Source: Ctena decussata
Taxonomy: Eukaryota; Mollusca; Bivalvia; Lucinida; Lucinidae
DNA: 64,000 nucleotides
Reading direction: 5' to 3'
Assembly: GCA_963989385.1 (NCBI GenBank)
Contig: OZ022502.1
Location: 3,316,501 to 3,380,500, forward strand
Shown: piece by piece, positions 585-31,692 of the stretch
Position numbering within the stretch: position 1 is the stretch's first letter
Layout of the letters: each line of letters opens with the position of its first letter
The notes under the pieces: generated by a model
The model's database searches: none
Told to the model about the DNA's origin: nothing
What the model saw: the letters and a program-made list of their open reading frames with translations, nothing else
Position numbers and translations under genes: made by a program

Positions 585-808
585 GTTACAATTTAAAAAC
601 GAATAAGATATGTTTAAACCAATGATTTGGCCCAACTTTGATGGACCTATGTATCTAAGGAAGCAAACAGGAAGTCACAAAATTTGTCTGCCGATAGTAA
701 AATAAGAAAACTCAATCTGCTTTTCGAGTATTATTCAATGGGTTGCGACTCGCTACACTCTGCATCTTTTATTTATCAGAATGGTCTGTGTTTTGTTTCT
801 TTTCTCAG
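1..808. other. Non-coding; (AT)n microsatellite and old repeat
   Basis: Intron or flank of the transporter gene. (AT)n at about 550-580. Pieces of 480-700 resemble 23040-23270 (AAGTCACAAAA(C/A)TTGTCT and a conserved AAGATATGTTTAAA-like stretch). No credible exon was seen upstream of 809. Confidence 0.4.
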
Positions 809-1018
809 AGATCTATGGGGTGTATTACAACCGGGGTCTCTATACTAATAGCAACCTTATTCACCACCGAGTACACCGGTAAGGCAGGGTTCTTAATATG
901 GATCTGTGTTATGTATCTGACATTTTCTGGGATCCTCGCAATTTTACCAACCACCATGGCCAAACTGTTCGGCACCAGTAATATGGCGGTCAGCTATGGA
1001 TTCCTCCAGGCTGCACTA
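809..1018 (+). CDS. MFS transporter, internal exon (oxalate/formate antiporter or monocarboxylate-like)
   Basis: Seventy codons, open throughout and phase 0 at both ends. A long pyrimidine tract ending TTTCTCAG gives the acceptor at 807-808, and CTA|GTAAGT gives a consensus donor at 1019. The peptide has two hydrophobic segments and then a loop reading LPTTMAKLFGTSN followed by YG, which resembles the FG(T)xN...YG signature in the second half of OFA-type and monocarboxylate-type major facilitators (often named apicoplast pyruvate carrier-like in molluscs). It probably moves a small organic anion across a membrane, but the substrate cannot be read from the sequence. Upstream exons lie outside the window or were not found in 1-800. 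The reading frame extends 5' of 809 only as intron sequence. Joining to the 1980 exon restores a continuous MFS-like peptide, which supports the gene model. Confidence 0.72.
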
Positions 1019-1032
1019 GTAAGTAACACTCA

Positions 1033-1212
1033 GGGGATAAATGTACTTCAAATATTGTCATTTGGGGCGGAGAATCGTCGGTTTCATGCTTGGAAATTTC
1101 GTTTTACGGCGACAGGCTAGCTGAGCCGTAAAACGCAATTTGCGACCGTAAAAGCGACGATATACCACCCCCGTCCCCCCACCCATATAACAATTTTCAA
1201 TACAGTTATCCC
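1033..1212. repeat. Foldback element (GGGGATAA ends), copy 1
   Basis: Inverted repeat: ATTGTCATTTGGGG and GTAAAACG-type sequence on the left is mirrored on the right, closing with CAGTTATCCCC. It starts only 14 bases after the splice donor of the transporter exon. A close relative sits at 27557-27722. Sequence to about 1440 is also shared with 27723-28345. Confidence 0.6.
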
Positions 1213-12688: not shown

Positions 12689-12931
12689 TCAAAATAAGTC
12701 ACTTGGTGTTAAGGGGTCGTAGCATGTTTCCCAGTTTACAAAAAAATGCTGTTCTAAAGATGCACACATTGAAGCAAAACCTGGCGACCGTGCTTTGCAG
12801 CGTGTAGAATCATAGGGTTTGCAGTCGGTTACGGAGCTCCTTCTCTTGATTGTGTAATATTTCGGATGGTACTTTGTTGCCGGAGTGTAAGTGCTGATCT
12901 TTAGACTACTGTTACACCACTGGTCAAACAC
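12689..12931 (-). CDS. Secreted amidase-like protein, terminal exon
   Basis: Begins after TTTCTTCAG in phase 0 and runs 80 codons to TGA. VFDQWC supplies a candidate third catalytic residue (Asp127), and a YYTIKR strand follows at about residues 149-154. The C-terminal 50 residues hold four further cysteines (161, 169, 180, 194) and look like an animal-specific extension. In total the mature chain has 13 cysteines: one candidate catalytic plus 12 that could form six disulphides, fitting a stable extracellular enzyme. Whole protein 204 residues. Function (peptidoglycan amidase, perhaps of bacterial origin and used in defence or digestion) is inferred from motif layout only. No clear AATAAA was seen just downstream; a 38-bp minisatellite occupies that flank. 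Confidence 0.72.
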   Translation of the reverse strand: MFDQWCNSSLKISTYTPATKYHPKYYTIKRRSSVTDCKPYDSTRCKARSPGFASMCASLEQHFFVNWETCYDPLTPSDLF

Positions 12932-12958
12932 CTGAAGAAAAACAAGCTCAGCCACATT

Positions 12959-13201
12959 TGAGCCGCGACACGAGAAAACAAACAAAGTGGTTGTGCACCC
13001 CGCGCAGACTCAGATCAACCTGGGCATCCGCCCAGTCTGATCAGACTCTTCGATGTGCGCTTAAAGGGTAGCTAAGGGTCGAAGCTACCTCCGTGCAGAC
13101 AGGGAAGACTCTGATCAGACTGGGCGGATGCCCAGGCTGATCTGAGTCTGCGCTGGGTGCACGACCAATTTGCTGTTGTTGTTTTTTCGTGTCGCGACTC
13201 A
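12959..13201. mobile_element. Family A element in intron 3 of the amidase-like gene
   Basis: Full-length palindrome beginning 28 bases upstream (in gene orientation) of the last coding exon, so it lies next to the splice acceptor and branch-point region. Confidence 0.85.
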
Positions 13202-13499
13202 ATTATTTTATTATTGGCCTCATCTATCTATGGGAATATGTTCTATAAAAGGGTTATCCTTTGGAAGCAAGGATCACACCAAAGAACTGAAAACTGTCGA
13301 GTGTACAAGTTTTCTGGGCCAGACTAGCTAGTTTCGGCCAATTAGGCCTCATCAGTGACCCTCAATGAAATTGAAATTAAAGATACTTAAAGAAACCATT
13401 TTCTTGGGGGAATCCACCATTTTTTCTTTGCAGAGTTTAACCCAATACCTTCCCTGAAAGGGTATCTTACCGAACCCCGGAGTGGATATTTTTAAGTCG

Positions 13500-13885
13500 T
13501 TCCCATTACATGTACTTATTTTGTCGTTTCTTCGACTGATTAAGTTGTTCCCTTGACTTATTAAGTCGTTCCCTTGACGTATTAAGTTGTTCCCGTGACT
13601 AATAAAGTTGTTCCCTTGACTTATTAAGTTGTTCCCTTGACTGATTAAGTTGTTCCCTTGACTTATTAAGTCGTTCGTTCGACTTATGTATGTCGTTCCC
13701 TCGACCTACCGGTATAATGTCGTTTCCTCGACTTATTATGTCGTTCCTACTGCTTATATTTCGTTACCTCGACTTGTGTATGTCATTTCCTAAACTGAAA
13801 TATGTCGTTCACTCAACTTATGCAGTTCATTTGTCTTACGTATTCCCTCGGCTTATTATGTGGTTTGCACAATTTATTAAGTCGT
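13500..13885. repeat. 21-bp minisatellite in intron 3 of the amidase-like gene
   Basis: Units like GACTTATTAAGTTGTTCCCTT, regular at 13535-13680 and degenerating towards 13885. The period is a multiple of three, which produces meaningless open frames. Confidence 0.8.
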
Positions 13886-14144
13886 TGTCATGAGATTATA
13901 AAGCTCTCAGATTGGCCCTGGTGTAGACTTGATATTTTTTTACATGTTTCAGATTCACAACCAGTCTGACCCAAAGTCTGACCCAAAGCCGAATTGCAGC
14001 ATATAAGTAGATCAACTGTGTCACTGTCTTCCACACGGTCAAAGAAGAGAGGTACGTGAAGCTTTGTTTCAAAGCTGGAAAAATGGCAAGAAGCCGGCGA
14101 CACGTATAAACGGTTTTCCATACTCGGACGGCATGAAGCGGGCT

Positions 14145-14238
14145 TAGAACCTTAGCTTCCTTTAAACGCAAAGCGAAGTCTCTGATCAGACTGGACGCAC
14201 ATGCCACTTTGTTGATTTTCTCATGTCGCTGCTCTGAT
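14145..14238. mobile_element. Family A fragment (right end)
   Basis: Only the right part remains: AGCGAAG, CTCTGATCAGACTGG, then GCCACTTTGTTGATTTTCTC and a degraded terminus. Confidence 0.6.
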
Positions 14239-14300
14239 AGTAGAAAGTTTTAGTAAGGAAACGCTACTTGACAGGAAAGGTAAACGTATGGGATAAACAA

Positions 14301-14548
14301 CAGGGCCCAGTTGTTCAAAACTAACGACGTTGTTAGTTAACGTGACGTTAAAATTTCAAACGTTAATATCACAAATGTGCCAATATTTCTTGTTGCAAAA
14401 CTGTGAGAAGCTTTTGCATTGTAAAAGCTTCTCACATTTTTTCAACAAAAAATATCAGCGTATTTGGTAATAAAAACGTAAAACACTTAACGAGTGGACC
14501 TCTTAACGAGCTCGTTAGCCTAACGATGCTTTGAACAACTGGGCCCTG
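14301..14548. mobile_element. Palindrome with CAGGGCCCAGTTGTTCAAA ends
   Basis: Terminal 19-base inverted repeat CAGGGCCCAGTTGTTCAAA / TTTGAACAACTGGGCCCTG, inner arms with AACGAC-type repeats, and a hairpin GAGAAGCTTTTGCATTGTAAA centre. Located in intron 3 of the amidase-like gene. Confidence 0.8.
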
Positions 14549-14654
14549 AAGGCTAACTTTAAAAATCATACAGTACATTTCCCATCAGGCACATGACGTT
14601 GAAATGACGCCGTATTGACGTCGATGCGACGTAATGGGGGAAGAACCAACTTAC

Positions 14655-14792
14655 TTTTATATTTTCACCATCACATGAATCGAATATAGCAGCGTGACCA
14701 TGGTAACGAGCGGTCAAGCTGTTGAAAGTAGCGATGGGAGTCCCTCTCTCGATAGCTTCTACAGAAGTTTGGTTTTCACAAAAGTCAGCCAC
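14655..14792 (-). CDS. Secreted amidase-like protein, exon 3 (candidate catalytic His)
   Basis: A 138-base exon, phase 0 at both ends, with acceptor TTTTTTCTTCAG and donor AAA|GTAAGT. It encodes residues 79-124, including GTPIATF and RYHGHAAIF. GHAAIF (His111) has the look of the catalytic-His strand in CHAP/NlpC-P60 amidases, and G(T/S)xIATF just before it is typical of bacterial BPSL0067-type relatives. Two cysteines (83, 118) are present. The intron towards exon 2 carries two SINE families. Confidence 0.72.
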
Positions 14793-15164
14793 CTGAAGAA
14801 AAAATATAGTAATGTTAATAAAGGAAAGAATTTCAGGGGAGATAATTCATACTAAGAAAAAATTGTCACCCATTTCATTTTTGTTCTCTTACTGGAAAGA
14901 AATTGCTCCATAGAGGCGCATAATTAGTTTTATTATATGACCAAGATGTAACACGCAATTTCATTGGCTGCTTTCACGTGCCGGTCAATATTTTGTGATA
15001 TTCACCAGCCTGTCAGTGAATATTACTTCTACGCTGACGTCATTGTATTTTCGTGACGTAACGTCTGATTTACGTTAATGTTAATGGCGTAACGTCGCGA
15101 GATAATACCATGTAGTACCACCATAAATATCTAAAGAAACTGAATTTTGAATTATCATATAATA

Positions 15165-15310
15165 AAACAATTGTTGACCTTATTTCGATGAGTATGCAGT
15201 TTTATTGACCTGCAAATATAACATTGACCGACGCGAAGCGGAGGTCAATACGATGTTTGCAGGTCAATAAAACTGCATATTCACCTCAACAAATAATTGT
15301 ATAATATTCT
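15165..15310. repeat. Foldback repeat
   Basis: GTATGCAGTTTTATTGACCT / AGGTCAATAAAACTGCATAT arms around GACGCGAAGCGGAGGTC. An outer AATTGTTGA / CAACAAATAATT pair extends the stem. Confidence 0.7.
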
Positions 15311-16388
15311 ACTAAAGCTTGAAAGGGCTGCGTTTCGAAGGCAAAAAAAGAGGAATTTATAAAAGTTCTGTGTCTTTTCAAACATGGAAAAACAACATGG
15401 CAATATCACACCGGGTAGACGGCAATCAAAAACGCTCATGAATGCAGTCGACGAGCGTGGATCAAACAGCATCTATAATACTAAATAAACGAAGTAACGC
15501 ATAAACTGCAAAATTGGTGGCATTTTCAAGCGTAATTTCTACACTGGTTCTTTCGCATATTGCTATCATTGATAATTTCGGTTAGCGTGTGTTTTAGTTT
15601 CACGTAGATTTAAAGAATTTGGGAATTAAATTCGTCTTTCATTTTAAATTCTCCCAAGTATTTTTCTAGAAACTTCGATGTCAACAATGGGTGCGTTCGA
15701 GTGAAATTATCGTGTACTCGAATACACGTTTTAAATTAATCCGGTCGTTTCGGTTCTGCGTCGTTATATCGGCGCGCTGCTTAGCAAGTCCAAATTTAGC
15801 AGCTTCTAATCCAAAAATCCGACCCATGAACGTATGTCATTCCCCATAAATAACGATTTATTTTTGTATTTTTGCTCATATGTGTAAACGGATGAAGAAC
15901 TAAATGGTCATAGTCCCGGCGGCCCTGGCTCGAAACGACCCATTTTCTTCCAGAACGATGGTCAATACGAGTAGCCAATCGAACTCGCCCATTGAAGAAT
16001 AAAGCTCAACGCACATGGTCTTTCGAAAAGTTGGACGGACACACGGCGCCAAGTGTGTGCGGCTATGGTTACGTACCGCTGAGCCACTTGGGGAACGTCG
16101 TTAGGAGAATTTAAACTGAACTGAACTTTCGAAAAGACAAAAATTAAAAATGTCTAAGGTTAACACACATGCGCCAGGTAAGAAAGGGCATTTTTCCAGC
16201 GAAGCAGACAAATCAATTTCAATGATTCAACGGAGCTAAATAAGCCTTTAGTCTTCAGAGGGTTTGAATATTTACCCCTAAAACGTTCCAGGACCCAATT
16301 TTTCCAGAAAAAAAAATACCCAGGCCCTGGGGACAGGTCACATAACCAAGATGGCAAACATTTATTATGGTAAAAATTTTCAAAAATC
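15310..16388. other. Intron 2 sequence, no recognised content
   Basis: AT-rich with no coding or repeat signal that I could place. Confidence 0.4.
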
Positions 16389-16405
16389 TTCTCCCCCAGA
16401 ACTAC
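16389..16405. repeat. SINE target-site duplication, left
   Basis: TTCTCCCCCAGAACTAC; repeated at 16673-16689 with one substitution. Confidence 0.85.
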
Positions 16406-16672
16406 GCCGGGCCGCGTAGCGCAATCGGTAGGGCACCTGACTCATAAGTCAGAGGTCCTGGGTTCGAAACCCGGTCTGGCCACATACTTTTGTTTCTCCT
16501 TCCGCTGATTCAAGAAGGGCAGTTGTCAGTTACTGGCGAAAGTATGTGCACTTAGTACTGGTTAACCGCTTAGGAGGTCTAAGCCTGCCCAGGAATAGTG
16601 TGGTTAGGTTAACTGACCGTCCCGACATGACCTTAGCTGTTTACCGTGGACGTTAAGCATCAAATCAACCAA
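16406..16672 (+). mobile_element. tRNA-derived SINE (Met-like head), with intact target duplication
   Basis: The head looks like a tRNA with CAT anticodon. Box A TAGCGCAATCGG and box B GGTTCGAAACC are both consensus. It is followed by a body ending CGTGGACGTTAAGCATCAAA. It is flanked by 17-base direct repeats TTCTCCCCCAGAACYAC at 16389-16405 and 16673-16689, so it is a clean insertion in intron 2 of the amidase-like gene, antisense to it. The acceptor stem is imperfect and the anticodon loop has 6 bases, so it is not a working tRNA gene. Confidence 0.9.
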
Positions 16673-16689
16673 TTCTCCCCCAGAACCAC
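16673..16689. repeat. SINE target-site duplication, right
   Basis: TTCTCCCCCAGAACCAC; pairs with 16389-16405. Confidence 0.85.
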
Positions 16690-17377
16690 AAATCCTATGA
16701 TCTTGAAACTTAGCATGTCGCATCAAGGACTCAAAAGCTCAACAAAATTTATATAAATGATGACCCTGGGATGACCTTGATCTGTTTTACGGCAAGGTCA
16801 ACTTTTGAGTCACTTAGGTTTTTCTATAGGAAAAAGTTAAAAAAAGTTGATTTTTTTTAGAAACAATGCAGTCTGCTACCTGAAAGTTTGTAGATGCAGA
16901 CAACTAATTAGGTAAATGAAGCTTTAATGAGTATTCATGGTAAAGGTCATATCTTCACCTGGGCCTAAGGCCATTTACATTGAAAAATTAAAACTCGCTT
17001 TTTTTATATAAACTTGACCATCATTAAATATTTCCGCGCTTGCGCGGGCTCTTTTCTAGTTAGAAACAACGTTTTCGATTGCAAATGGTCGCAATTGTTT
17101 TTATATGTTGTTAGCGATAAAAACCTCGTATTATTTACGCACGTTGATGTCTGTAACCACGACCAACAAAGAAGCGTATCCTCGTAAAATACCCTTTACA
17201 TATCTTCTTCCTAGTTTTTTTTTTTTTTTTTTTTTTGCTTCAGAAGCGAATTTGATTAGCTTAAGAATCTAAATTTTAACATCAATTTAAATCCCGATTA
17301 ACGTACGCTTCAGGTTACTGAGACATGTGAGAAGGAACTGCAATACAAAATCTCATCGATCCCATACTCAGAAAGAT

Positions 17378-17541
17378 TCCCGTTAACTCAGTGGGTTAAG
17401 CGCTGGTCTCTCGGCCCAGGTTTGGATTCCCGCTGGAGGCGGACATCTTTTCAACCATAAACGGTCTTCCAATGCACACAGCCATTCAGTACCACCCTCC
17501 CATTGTCCTAATATGACTGAAATACGTTTGAAAGGACGTAC
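17378..17541 (+). mobile_element. Second tRNA-derived SINE family, copy 1
   Basis: Head GTTAACTCAGTGGGTTAAG with a box-B-like GGTTTGGATTCCC, then a body with ACGG, AATGCACACAGCC, CACCCTCCCATTGTCCT and GATATGA-like sequence. In intron 2 of the amidase-like gene. Confidence 0.7.
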
Positions 17542-17588
17542 TTTCACAAGTTATATATCACCCTACACTGCGATTTAAATGAGCTCAC

Positions 17589-17770
17589 CTTGCGACTTGC
17601 CTGCCAGCAACCAGTGTGAGGCATACTACACCTACACTTTAATAAGGCAACACACTGTCCCCCTTTGAAATTTGCATCACAATCATGATAACTGTTCTCG
17701 TCAAGTCTCCACCCTGTATAAAATGCCATCCAATTCGTGTACCAATGTATACAGCTGTACTCTTCTGAGG
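17589..17770 (-). CDS. Secreted amidase-like protein, exon 2 (candidate catalytic Cys)
   Basis: The acceptor CCTTTACAG precedes a phase-1 exon of 182 bases that ends CGCAAG|GTGAGC in phase 0. It encodes precursor residues 18-78. The stretch KGGQCVALLKC (Cys57) followed by P, T and W resembles the catalytic-cysteine motif of NlpC/P60- and CHAP-type cell-wall amidases, where a Cys sits at the start of a helix after a Gly/Gln. An aromatic and Cys-rich N-terminal part (residues 22-52, Cys24 and Cys48) precedes it. No internal stop. Confidence 0.72.
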
Positions 17771-17796
17771 CTGTAAAGGACAGAACATTTGCATGA

Positions 17797-18345
17797 CATA
17801 CACTCAGCAAAATTTCTAATTGGTCAGTTTTCTACTTTGCAGACATACAACTTTTATACAATATTTTTGAAAATTGTTATAATCAATATATTGGGCTATT
17901 ATCGACCTACTAAAATTGAATGTTGTAATAATATCTTTATTGTAATAACAGAGTTATAGCCCTTTCTTTGTAAAACATGATATGTTTAGAAACCGCATTA
18001 AAACCGCATCGAGCTGCCACAAGATCAAGGCATTTCAGAAGTAAATAAAGTTTCCTATCATCAAAACACAAAATTTGTACTCAGTAATCATAAAACGTTT
18101 ATCTGTATTAATTTTAATATTTAAGTATTCAAATTACTTCCCTTTGAATGTTTGTGTAAATATTAATAGGAGCCTCAAATTGTAGTGAATCCTTTTACAA
18201 ATGCATAAATGATTGTGCCGTTTGTAAAATACAGGTAAATACATGTATGTGCATTTATTCTTCCCAATTTGAAGTCAGGATTATCTTAAGTTCCATAAGG
18301 CTTAATTCTATTGAAAAAGTGACCAATTAGAAATTTCAGTGTATG
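17797..18345. mobile_element. TIR element (CATACACT...AATTTCTAATTGGTCA)
   Basis: A terminal inverted repeat of about 26 bases: CATACACT(CAGCAA)AATTTCTAATTGGTCA at 17797-17826 and TGACCAATTAGAAATTTCAG / TGTATG at 18320-18345. The interior is AT-rich and non-coding. In intron 1 of the amidase-like gene. Confidence 0.7.
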
Positions 18346-18390
18346 TGGGTACTCTGACAGGGATAGTTAAGGAATGAATTTCATTTTTCT

Positions 18391-18557
18391 GAGGTTTATC
18401 GAAGTGTAAACTATATTGGGTCACTAGCAAAGTAAATGAACCCCGAAAATCGAAGTGTAAACTACATTGGGTCACGTGCAAAGTAAATGAACCCCGAAGG
18501 GGTTCATGTAAACTTTGCTAGTGACCCAATGTAGTTTACACTTCGATAAACATCAGA
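18391..18557. repeat. Palindrome with duplicated left arm
   Basis: Arm sequence TCGAAGTGTAAACTA.ATTGG / GTCAC..GCAAAGTAAATGAA occurs twice on the left (from 18400 and from 18449) and once inverted on the right (GGGGTTCATGTAAACTTTGC ... TTCGATAAACATCAGA). Confidence 0.75.
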
Positions 18558-18929
18558 AAAATTAAGTTCATTGCTTATATTTACATCCGTTGCAATCAAA
18601 TTTTTCATGAAAAAATCTTATATAAGCGCTAAAATTGAAGCAGTAAAACATGTACACGCAGTTTTTTTTTTACTAACAGCAGAACGGCATGCATGACGTC
18701 ATGACGTTGCTGACGTCCAATCATGTTGTAGAGCGCAATTGTTTATTTTTACGTCATTGACGTCGTGTGTCGCAATGTAATTATTGGAATGTAAACTACA
18801 TTACGTTCCAATGGTTTACTATAGGGCTTTTCAGTAAATACACCAAAAATGTAAATATTATCGTAAAGATGCTAAGAATCGGGACACCTTAACCTTAAAG
18901 CGCCAAAAAAAAAAAAATTGTTGAATTGG

Positions 18930-18983
18930 CAAACAGTGTAGATCCAGATGAGAGCCACCTCATCTAAATCTACACTGTTTGTC
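18930..18983. repeat. Short hairpin (GGCAAACAGTGTAGAT)
   Basis: GGCAAACAGTGTAGATCCAG and its complement, separated by ATGAGAGCCACCTCAT. The same GCAAACAGTG arm is seen at 8300-8390 and 24575. Confidence 0.65.
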
Positions 18984-19089
18984 CTCTAGTGTTCGAATTC
19001 TCAATATGATATCGCTTGGACGAGACTTTTGTGAAATTGAGCAGACGTAAATTTTGTCGTCTGCATTTTTAGGGTTAACTACTCCTAAA

Positions 19090-19235
19090 ATTGCACAGTT
19101 TGGCTTTCCAGTGCAGTTATGCTTAAAAATGCAGATGGAATGCCGAACAGTGACTGCTCCTTCTGCAGGAGCAGTCTGATCAGGGTCTGCACTGTTTGCT
19201 CATACATGTCTGTGCCAATATTTTCAATTATTTCT
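19090..19235 (+). repeat. Family B repeat, short copy
   Basis: ATTGCACAGTTTGGCTTTCC, core GACTGCTCCTTCTGCAGGAG / CAGTCTGATCAG, then CTGCACTGTTTGCTCATAC. Matches 24505-24650. Confidence 0.6.
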
Positions 19236-19553
19236 AACACAACCACAACTACTTCACAGCGAATTATTTTATCCTATCGCTCTTTTGCAAAGAATATAAA
19301 ATGCCATATCGATTGATGCAATTTTAGAAATGGCTGAAAAATAACCTCTAAGTTGCAGCCCCCGCCCCCCACCGCCAAACAGCTTATACTTGTATACTTG
19401 TTTGCATACTCATTTGTTCAAGGAAAGTTAAAACTTATCAGAACTTGAAAATCTTAATTATTATACCTATTAAGTAAGTCCTACTCGGCAGGCATGTCCG
19501 TTCGCTATATGCTGAAAAAAAATTGCTGTAAAGTTGTGCTAACTTGATATTTA

Positions 19554-19663
19554 CCCAGGAGGCACATGACGTCGAAATGACGTCATACTGACGTCAATGC
19601 GACATCCTCCACGTCGCATCGACGTCGGTGCGACGTCATTTCAACGTCATGTACCTGCTGGGG
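19554..19663. mobile_element. CCCAGCAGG-ended GACGTC palindrome
   Basis: About 110 bases, ends CCCAGGAGGCACATGACGTC and GACGTCATTTCAACGTCATG / TACCTGCTGGGG. Nearly perfect inverted repeat built of GACGTC and ATGACGT steps. A half-copy lies at about 14579-14636. Confidence 0.75.
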
Positions 19664-20276
19664 ATGACCTCGGAGTTACGCCATGAGGGCGTGTCGATCT
19701 TTATGCGTATGCTGCACAATGTTGCCTTAATGATATTTCGCAGTAGTCTGTGAGCTAAATTACTGCCATATACAGCGAAATATGGACCAAAGTTATTCTC
19801 AGTTCTCGTTGAAAATAAGACGTCAGCAACGTATACTGTGAGACGACACTGTAAATTGAAAATGAAGTACAAGAGCTAATCCATTCCCACATGGAAATTA
19901 AATTTTTGACTTTTTGCTAACCAGTAGCTCTTGTACTTTATTATATATAATGTCTTCTTGAAAATCTGTAAAACAGTGAAACCGCGGTAGAAGTTAATTA
20001 ATAATTGTGTTATTTGGCTATATCGGACTTATTGTTTTTACTATATATATATAAATATATATGGACCATGTACATGTAGGCACCTTATCACCGTATAATC
20101 TTGTGTTACAATCCTGTCTCTTATATGTTTTAAAGGAAAATCTTTTCTTCTTTTTTTTTTTCAAAATGGCCTTCGAATGATTAGTTTCGACACGCGTAGG
20201 TTATTACCCCTGTATTTAAAATAACAAAAAGAAATTATTAATGACGTTAACTGTATAAAGCAATATATAATGTTAC

Positions 20277-20328
20277 CTTTCAACGCAGCAAATAAACCGA
20301 ACAGGCAAAACAGAAGCACTGCCTTCAT
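20277..20328 (-). CDS. Secreted amidase-like protein, exon 1 (signal peptide)
   Basis: The ATG at 20328 starts MKAVLLFCLFGLFAALK, a one-Lys N-terminus and hydrophobic core typical of a secretion signal. The exon is 17 codons plus one base and ends AAAG|GTAACA. A TATAAATA box lies 53 bases upstream of the ATG, supporting this start. Joining to the exon at 17770 gives Ala18 and continues the frame. The mature product is therefore predicted to act outside the cell or in a vacuole. Confidence 0.72.
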
Positions 20329-20380: not shown

Positions 20381-20388
20381 TATTTATA
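20381..20388 (-). promoter_or_regulatory. TATA box of the amidase-like gene
   Basis: Reads TATAAATA on the minus strand, within GTATAAATACCCC, 53 bases before the ATG. Normal TATA-to-start spacing places transcription start near 20355 and gives a 5' leader of about 25-30 bases. Confidence 0.55.
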
Positions 20389-28430: not shown

Positions 28431-29324
28431 TCAACCCTTCGAAGTGTTCTCCTTTGACGGAAACACACTTTTCAAGTCTCGAAATCCATTCTGTAAAGGC
28501 AGAGATGTAGGCCTTGTTAGGTATACCCTGAAGACACTGTGAATTGCACTACCAAGTACACTTCGAGGTTCATAACGACGACCAGAAAGGATTTTCTTTA
28601 TTAAAGGAAACAGGAAAACGTCGAAGGGACTAAGGTCTGGCGAATAAGGTGGATGAGAGAGCTGAACTACCTTTTCCTCTTTCAAGAAGTCTTGGACAAG
28701 AACAAACTTGTGGGCAGGTGCGTTGTCATGGATAAGACACAGACCTCTTAAACCGATTGCAGGTCTACGTTTTTCATAATGTGCCTTTACTTTTGACAAC
28801 ACACCATTCTTATAAAATTTACCTGTGATTGTATTGCCATTTGGTAAGGTAATTTGAACAATGGGTCCATCGCAATTGAAAAATACTGCATACAAAACTT
28901 TGGCCGCGCTTTTAATTCTTTTGGCAATGACTAGCAGCTTTTCTTTGCTGGCCGGGGCAGGGCTCATCTTTCAGGTCAGTTTCACCATCTTTAAATTTTT
29001 TATGTCACCTGAAAACTGACTTTTAGAGACAACAGATGCCCCATGTATCTGACACAGCTCACTATATATCTGTGAAACTGGAATATTCAGACCAACGCGA
29101 CCTTTAACATACGGAGACATTTTTAGCTGTTTGATCAAAGGAATTAAGCGTGTCATTTCCGTAAAATAACTGATGATGTAGGCCCTAATTTCAAAGCTTG
29201 TTTCGTTTTTCAGTTTGCATACAGTAAGGGTTGAGTGTATATGACAGAACCAACTTGAACTTTCAATAACGTTTGAAAGACTGAACGGATTAGACCGAAA
29301 TTTCATCCTATTATAGAAAATCAC
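28431..29324 (-). pseudogene. Mariner-family transposase relic (SETMAR-like), internally deleted
   Basis: The minus-strand 5' part (29324-28974) holds an N-terminal helix-turn-helix-like region (KMSPYVKGRVGLNIPVSQIY and CQIHGASVVSKSQF). An in-frame TGA and one codon separate it from a 178-codon 3' part (28967-28434) with IHDNAPAH and PPYSPDLSPFDVF. The two aspartates (81 and 116 of this part) are 34 residues apart, the mariner D34D spacing. The region with the first catalytic Asp is missing, so the transposase cannot be active. Terminal inverted repeats could not be placed with confidence. Confidence 0.88.
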
Positions 29325-29329
29325 TTCCC

Positions 29330-30210
29330 CGTGAAATCACCGCAGTTTCCACGTGCTCCTTACAGCCAAAAAGTGTGGTGGGCCATTAGTGACACAATTA
29401 AATGAACGACCCATGTAAAGGTAACAATGTCAGTGTCCGAATTTACCTGCTGTCCGAATTTACCTGACGACCCTAAAGGAGAGTACCGACATGGTCAACA
29501 AGAACGAGAAATTGTAAAGAAACACAACAGAAGTACCGCCTTTGAACGGTCATTATTGCATAAAAAGCAGTGCCGAGAGGTATTAACAGCCGTGCATCAA
29601 CAGGCGAAAAGCCGTGTTTCAACAATGGTTTTCTCGCGCTGTTGAAACACGATGACAGAACTTTCGCTATGCTTGTGCCGGGCCACTAAAAACCGCCATG
29701 CACTCTTGCCTCTCCCTTTTCGATTAATTTACAATAATTGGTCGCGTGCTACCTAAGTTTTCTTATGACGTCATCATGTACTCTTATTACGTCATAAAGT
29801 ACCGACACGGATTTCAAAGCCATGTTGTTTTCATTCTTACGATGCCAAATGGAGAGTAAATAAGTGTTAAAGAAAACATGCATCCTAAGCTTTCAGTAAT
29901 CAAGAACTGCAGGATGGTATACGAATGGATCAGGCTTGTTCTGCATGGAAATTATTGCTCAAGGTATCTGCTTTTTGTTGATTAATTTACCATCTATTTT
30001 GCATCAACTACATCGACCATCTTGGATACTTTTCCGAAATGAGATAAAATAGGATGATGGCAGCCATTTTGAAAAGTATGAATGCTCTCGGGCCCGGAAG
30101 ACGAATATTAGTAAACAGATGCACCAGCGCGTTGGTTGTTAAACGGTGACAAAATAGAGTGCCAAGTTTTTTTCTCAAATTTTAACTAATAATTCGTTGA
30201 TTTATGCAAT
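29330..30210. other. Non-coding with repeat ends
   Basis: Contains a lone GTGTCCGAATTTACC end (29432-29470) and GTACCGCCTTTGAACGGTCA (29533-29552), which also occurs near 34475 inside an insertion. No gene supported. Confidence 0.4.
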
Positions 30211-31424: not shown

Positions 31425-31692
31425 GATTGATTGATTTGTTGCTTTACGTCCACGGTAAACAGCTATGATCATGTCGGGACGGTCAGTTAACCTAGCCACA
31501 CTATTCCTGGGCAGGCTTAGACCTCATAAGCGGTTAACCAGTACTAAGTGCACATACTTTCGCCAGTAACTAACAACTGCACTTCTTGAGTCAGCGGAAG
31601 GAGAAACGAAAGTATATGGCCAGACCGGGTATGGAACCCAGGACTTCTGACTTATGAGTCAGGTGCCCTACCGACTGCACTACGCGGCCCGG
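31425..31692 (-). mobile_element. tRNA-derived SINE (Met-like head), second copy
   Basis: Reverse-strand copy of the 16406-16672 element, with the same body and an ATCAATCAATC-type tail at its 3' end. Flanks GCAAGGGTAAAACAA and GCAAGAGTTAACAAA look like a mutated target duplication. Box B carries one change, so this copy is older. Confidence 0.85.

Follow-up and report, generated by a model that had tools for sequence, protein, structure and literature searches.

A probably secreted, intron-bearing Tae2-type amidase gene with genomic copies in the bivalve Ctena decussata

Does a gene resembling a bacterial wall-cutting effector belong to the animal in whose genome it was found, and would it still encode an enzyme? 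The question is raised by a four-exon gene on the minus strand of a 64,000-nucleotide stretch of the Ctena decussata genome (the window; contig C5, positions 3316501-3380500), which an earlier note had described as a complete, intron-bearing gene for a secreted, amidase-like protein. Joining and translating the exons (Table 1) reproduced the exons, splice sites, phases and 204-residue product that had been claimed. The joined exons comprise 615 nt, corresponding to 204 codons and a TGA stop codon at 12689-12691. The three introns are all GT-AG, with phases of 1, 0 and 0, donors AAG/GTAACA, AAG/GTGAGC and AAA/GTAAGT, and acceptors TTTACAG/, CTTCAG/ and CTTCAG/. The G+C content is 0.44 in the coding exons and 0.38 in the window. 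Exon 1 was assigned by its donor site, hydrophobic stretch and position only, and an in-frame stop codon lies 12 nt 5' of its ATG.

An NCBIfam scan of the window protein identified BPSL0067 (NF033857) with a score of 45.9 bits (cut-off 27) over residues 54-138. The analysis of Pfam showed no family up to E = 10, including NlpC/P60 and CHAP. By sequence, the protein is therefore not one of these hydrolases. Kinship with BPSL0067-like proteins and type VI secretion system (T6SS) amidase effectors, which the earlier note had named, was confirmed by the NCBIfam, PDB and profile searches. A profile of 45 bacterial relatives found Salmonella Tae2 (6WIN) at 3.4e-35, and all 45 of these proteins scored as BPSL0067; BPSL0067 is thus the Tae2 family. 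On these profile matches, the window protein is a member of the BPSL0067/Tae2 family of T6SS amidase effectors. The predicted model of one bacterial relative, which is 41% identical to the window protein over 78 residues, has the papain-like fold of Tae2, with a weak resemblance to the NlpC/P60 and CHAP folds.

The conservation of the active site was analysed in 72 bacterial relatives. This set consisted of 77 loci, from which seven were removed (L054 with stop codons; L055 and L080-L084 incomplete) and to which L002 and L004 were added; L003, L005, L006 and L007 were used in two alignments only and are not part of it. The residues Cys57, His111 and Asp127, which the earlier note had proposed as catalytic, align with conserved residues of these relatives (72/72, 71/72 and 70/72, respectively), as do Gln128 and Trp73 (both 72/72). 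Against a profile of the 72 relatives, the joined protein scored 54.0 bits, compared with 8.2 bits for the best of 2000 shuffles. When the six-frame fragments of the window (n = 2246) were scored, the exon-2 frame ranked first (18.8 bits) and the exon-3 frame second (15.5 bits), while the exon-4 frame ranked third with a score that was not significant (4.7 bits). Among the fragments of 21 control sequences, of which one was the window reversed and 20 were first-order resamplings, the highest score was 9.8 bits.

The assembly comprises 1.66 Gb in 245 contigs, and contig C5 measures 99,977,196 bases. A protein search of the whole genome identified at least 12 exon matches, three of the window gene (copy A) and nine others; the copies B to E, which are absent from the earlier note, are described in Table 1. 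Copies B and D exceeded the NF033857 cut-off (44.9 and 35.8 bits) and copy C fell below it (15.6 bits). A longer loop before the His is present in copy D, as in many bacterial members. For copy E, no exon 3 or exon 4 was recognised within ~8.5 kb downstream on C10. A crude scan for exon 1 of the paralogues, up to 1.5 kb upstream, was empty, as it was for copy A, whose exon 1 lies farther away. A search of the genome for the NF033857 family gave nothing and is uninformative, because the control genomes likewise gave nothing.

All five copies have the exon 2 donor at the same place, and copies A to D also agree in the two boundaries of exon 3 and in the exon 4 acceptor. At its 5' boundary, exon 2 matches between A and B, whereas the position in C, D and E is less clear. 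As these boundaries are shared across different contigs, the alignment suggests that the introns were gained before the duplications. Bacterial contamination or a dead insertion could find some encouragement in the scan of 100 kb on either side, in which no second copy was recognised (the next best fragment, with 12.4 bits and an E of 0.043 at 123953-124114 in window coordinates, was taken for chance). This explanation is already contradicted by the three introns with their internal repeats, the contig of ~100 Mb, and the same splice boundaries in copies on three contigs, with open frames and moderate constraint; it would need introns and contigs to have been misassembled at several places, and we regard it as extremely improbable. 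The introns, the contig, the 1.66-Gb genome and the paralogues indicate that a Tae gene has become part of a eukaryotic genome. The gene is intron-bearing and chromosomal.

If the gene belongs to the animal, is its product exported? The peak hydrophobicity of the protein is found in a 12-residue stretch starting at residue 3 (mean 2.79), and values from residue 21 onward do not exceed 1.02. The mature protein contains 13 cysteines, namely Cys57 and twelve others. Copies A to D all share nine of these twelve; a tenth, Cys72, is present in A, B and C and displaced in D (aligned to residue 154 of A), and Cys180 and Cys194 are present in A and C. Besides position 57, there are 12, 10, 12 and 10 cysteines in A, B, C and D, respectively, all even numbers. 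The exon-2 cysteines at 24, 48, 63 and 65 are kept in all five copies, including those with Ser at the catalytic position. In the columns of the bacterial alignment, the four most frequent residues do not include Cys. We read the cysteines that the copies share and the bacterial members lack as a predicted set of disulfides acquired for export. The hydropathy and the cysteine pattern together suggest that the protein is probably exported via the putative signal peptide of exon 1. The C-terminal tail (from about residue 154) extends past the ends of six aligned bacterial relatives, with a single residue of one relative placed there.

The origin of the family was considered next to its bacterial relatives. 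Two peptide patterns alone retrieved 77 bacterial loci. In eight loci, the open reading frames (ORFs) directly downstream were analysed; a candidate neighbour was present in L008, L009, L018 and L057, and two other ORFs in L060. These four candidates and the annotated neighbour of L002 were scanned, and all five belong to the immunity-type STY0301 family. A VgrG gene is also found near L002, and L004 is without annotation. Plasmid records gave eight matches, each covering less than 80% of the query, with identities of 28.6-36.9% (the top row having 32.2%); five were annotated as BPSL0067, one as CHAP and two not at all. A quick tree that included 70 bacteria placed copies A to D in one clade (Shimodaira-Hasegawa-like approximate likelihood ratio test, 99), and the nearest bacterial row by path was L040, an Actinomycetota metagenome-assembled genome, with long branches. 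Between A and D, the proportions of nonsynonymous (pN) and synonymous (pS) differences were 0.43 and 0.83, and since the synonymous sites are saturated, the divergence is probably old. This saturation would also suit an old eukaryotic family that descended vertically and was lost elsewhere. Such a history seems unlikely in a comparison covering bacteria and this genome, given the number of bacterial loci retrieved by the two patterns, some adjoining an immunity-type gene, and the few eukaryotic members that are known.

Eleven stretches from a first contig scan with the window protein were examined and none was a relative. L001, from a viral-contig scan with the same query, was attributed to chance; its neighbouring genes are phage-like and it has little in common with the protein beyond TKYHPKYY. 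No match was found in the phage records, and the single PHROGs match (E 0.039) covers residues 135-181, beyond the catalytic residues.

Taken together, we consider it likely that the window gene encodes a horizontally acquired, secreted Tae2-type peptidoglycan endopeptidase, which works like Dae2 of Ixodes ticks and has expanded into a gene family. As the gene is complete and intron-bearing, is present in several copies and belongs to an effector family with which bacteria cut open their competitors, its probably secreted product is likely to be antibacterial, as is the tick enzyme. A bacterial Tae2 (BPSL0067) gene would have entered the animal by horizontal transfer and become a host gene, with intron gain and then duplication, and loss of the catalytic Cys in two copies. 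Exon 1 would contribute the signal peptide, and the exported protein would fold with five or six disulfides absent from the bacterial proteins, leaving Cys57 as the single free thiol. His111 would activate this residue and Asp127/Gln128 would hold it for attack on a peptide bond of peptidoglycan; in Tae2, the bond cleaved is the meso-diaminopimelate (mDAP)-D-Ala cross-link. Outside the cell, the enzyme may weaken or lyse bacteria with a reachable wall, in the manner of tick Dae2. The window protein shares with Salmonella Tae2 (6WIN) and BPSL0067 the profile family, the Cys, His and Asp-Gln positions, Trp73 and GTxIATF, and differs by having introns, an exon for a putative signal peptide, the C-terminal tail and ten to twelve additional cysteines. 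Some bacterial members also have the short loop before His111, which therefore does not set the window protein apart.

Several observations weigh against this reading. As a single sequence, the window protein had a sole PDB match, Tae2 (6WIN), with a weak E of 0.13. The alignment of the copies indicates that the active site is not conserved in every one: Ser replaces the catalytic Cys in copy C (L111) and copy E (L115), and Glu replaces Asp in C and D. The constraint between A and B is moderate, with a ratio of nonsynonymous to synonymous substitution rates (dN/dS) of 0.53 over 159 codons (pN/pS 95% bootstrap interval 0.41-0.88; dN/dS of 0.49, 0.30 and 0.84 for exons 2, 3 and 4). The dN/dS was 0.62 between A and C (exon 4, 0.99) and 0.74 between B and C (exon 4, 2.35); for the B-C pair, the pN/pS interval extends to 1.15. 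By these ratios, exon 4 is loosely constrained in all three comparisons, and copy C may be under relaxed constraint on account of the B-C values. Furthermore, not all bacterial relatives resemble T6SS effectors: three of the eight loci analysed (L040, L061 and L067) have no ORF directly downstream, and the plasmid stretches shown for L003, L005, L006 and L007 contain no annotated STY0301 or T6SS gene. In the tree, the animal branch is very long and no donor lineage stands out.

The substitutions could be consistent with a secreted peptidoglycan-binding or regulatory protein, which would keep the fold and disulfides but have given up catalysis as its function, a possibility for the Ser copies C and E. 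Two of the five exon-2 copies have the Ser and yet keep the shared cysteines and an open frame, and the Glu in C and D points the same way. For the window gene itself, this explanation is improbable, as copies A and B keep the active-site Cys, His, Asp, Gln and Trp and have the highest bacterial-profile scores (54.4 and 53.8 bits, compared with 51.9 for D and 29.0 for C). A broader form of the endopeptidase reading, which we offer only tentatively, is a Tae2-derived immune family outside ticks with its own disulfide framework, comprised of active enzymes and of Cys-to-Ser pseudoenzymes that would sense peptidoglycan, act as decoys or regulate the active ones.

Phage-type lysozymes differ from the window protein in that they cut sugar chains rather than peptides and are unrelated in sequence. 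In bivalves, such wall-cutting genes were co-opted from phages, retained by the animal and supplied with introns, as reported in PMC5303276. Dae2 of Ixodes ticks is described as an antibacterial protein of saliva and midgut, encoded by a Tae2-like gene that an animal has domesticated; a domesticated amidase effector is of an already known kind. Among the matches listed in the literature searched, with most subscription papers outside its coverage, the text available named no such gene outside ticks and no Tae2-type family with Ser-for-Cys members, and none of the papers listed dealt with a mollusc gene of this type. A digestive rather than an immune enzyme, secreted into the gut and opening bacterial food, is a further explanation. 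Secreted wall hydrolases of animals, such as lysozymes, do both jobs, and the present data do not separate the two. Tick Dae2, the closest case on record, is reported to be an antibacterial factor of midgut and saliva (PMC11347951, PMC7962413). We consider the digestive role possible but rather doubtful. The tick sources report that two types of Dae2 are known in Ixodes, that Dae2 eliminates Gram-positive bacteria and that its silencing leads to a higher Staphylococcus load (PMC11347951), and that Dae2 alone cannot breach the Gram-negative outer membrane (PMC7962413). By analogy, the same outer-membrane limit would be expected for the window enzyme.

Table 1. Features of the window gene (window coordinates) and its copies (contig positions)
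Feature	Position	Strand	Description
TATAAAT, candidate TATA box	20382..20388	-	60 nt 5' of start codon; consensus match only
Exon 1 (coding part)	20277..20328	-	ATG and putative signal peptide; 17 codons + 1 base, phase 1
Intron 1	17771..20276	-	phase 1, GT-AG
Exon 2	17589..17770	-	mature protein start; GGQC with predicted catalytic Cys57 (codon 17652-17654); Trp73
Intron 2	14793..17588	-	phase 0, GT-AG
Exon 3	14655..14792	-	GTPIATF; GHAAIF with His111 (codon 14694-14696)
Intron 3	12932..14654	-	phase 0, GT-AG
Exon 4	12689..12931	-	VFDQW with Asp127 (codon 12923-12925), Gln128; catalytic domain end; cysteine-rich tail; stop codon
Copy B	C5, ~250 kb from A		exons 64, 78 and 69% identical to A; Cys, His, Asp kept
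Copy C	C5 (L111, C5:3582797-3582967)		GGQS, GHAAIF, VFEQR; three exons spanning ~53 kb, may form one gene
Copy D	C2		GGQC, DHAAVF, VLEQ; exon 3 found in flank of exon 2
Copy E	C10 (L115, C10:68566498-68566629)		exon 2 only, GGQS

Other features were noted in and around the gene. Intron 1 contains a 51-bp unit in two copies that are 94% alike (18398-18498), and intron 3 contains a 21-bp tandem array (13514-13775). A tRNA-like sequence in intron 2 (16410-16482, plus strand; 35.5 bits in Rfam) is probably a tRNA-derived short interspersed nuclear element. A second one at 31617-31689 (minus strand) scored 29.3 bits in Rfam and was without a clear anticodon in ARAGORN. Two adjoining minus-strand segments (28431-28970 and 28971-29336) possibly represent a mariner-like transposase, with a DDE_3 match (5.8e-8) and adjoining below-cut-off matches to Cdc6_C (0.011) and HTH_48 of Mos1 (0.095). 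At 701-1120 (plus strand), a frame resembling a major facilitator superfamily transporter (oxalate:formate antiporter, E 2e-4) is likely an exon, and similar-looking frames were seen by eye upstream of the window. Further frames look by eye like long interspersed nuclear elements. These, the mariner-like and transporter-like frames, the genome size and the long introns are in keeping with an animal genome. One ORF stretch resembles NEPRHQKTN, of which similar repeats are present in bivalve and coral genomes, and would be a tentative pointer to a bivalve.

If the window enzyme is active, a weapon that bacteria use against each other, and that ticks are known to have turned into a defence gene, would also serve a second lineage of animals, in which it forms a gene family. 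With an intact site, Glu for Asp or Ser for Cys, the copies would provide a natural series for the rebuilding of an effector toward oxidising secretion, and the same series bears on how families split into enzymes and pseudoenzymes. Each copy is small and could be tested on purified cell walls.

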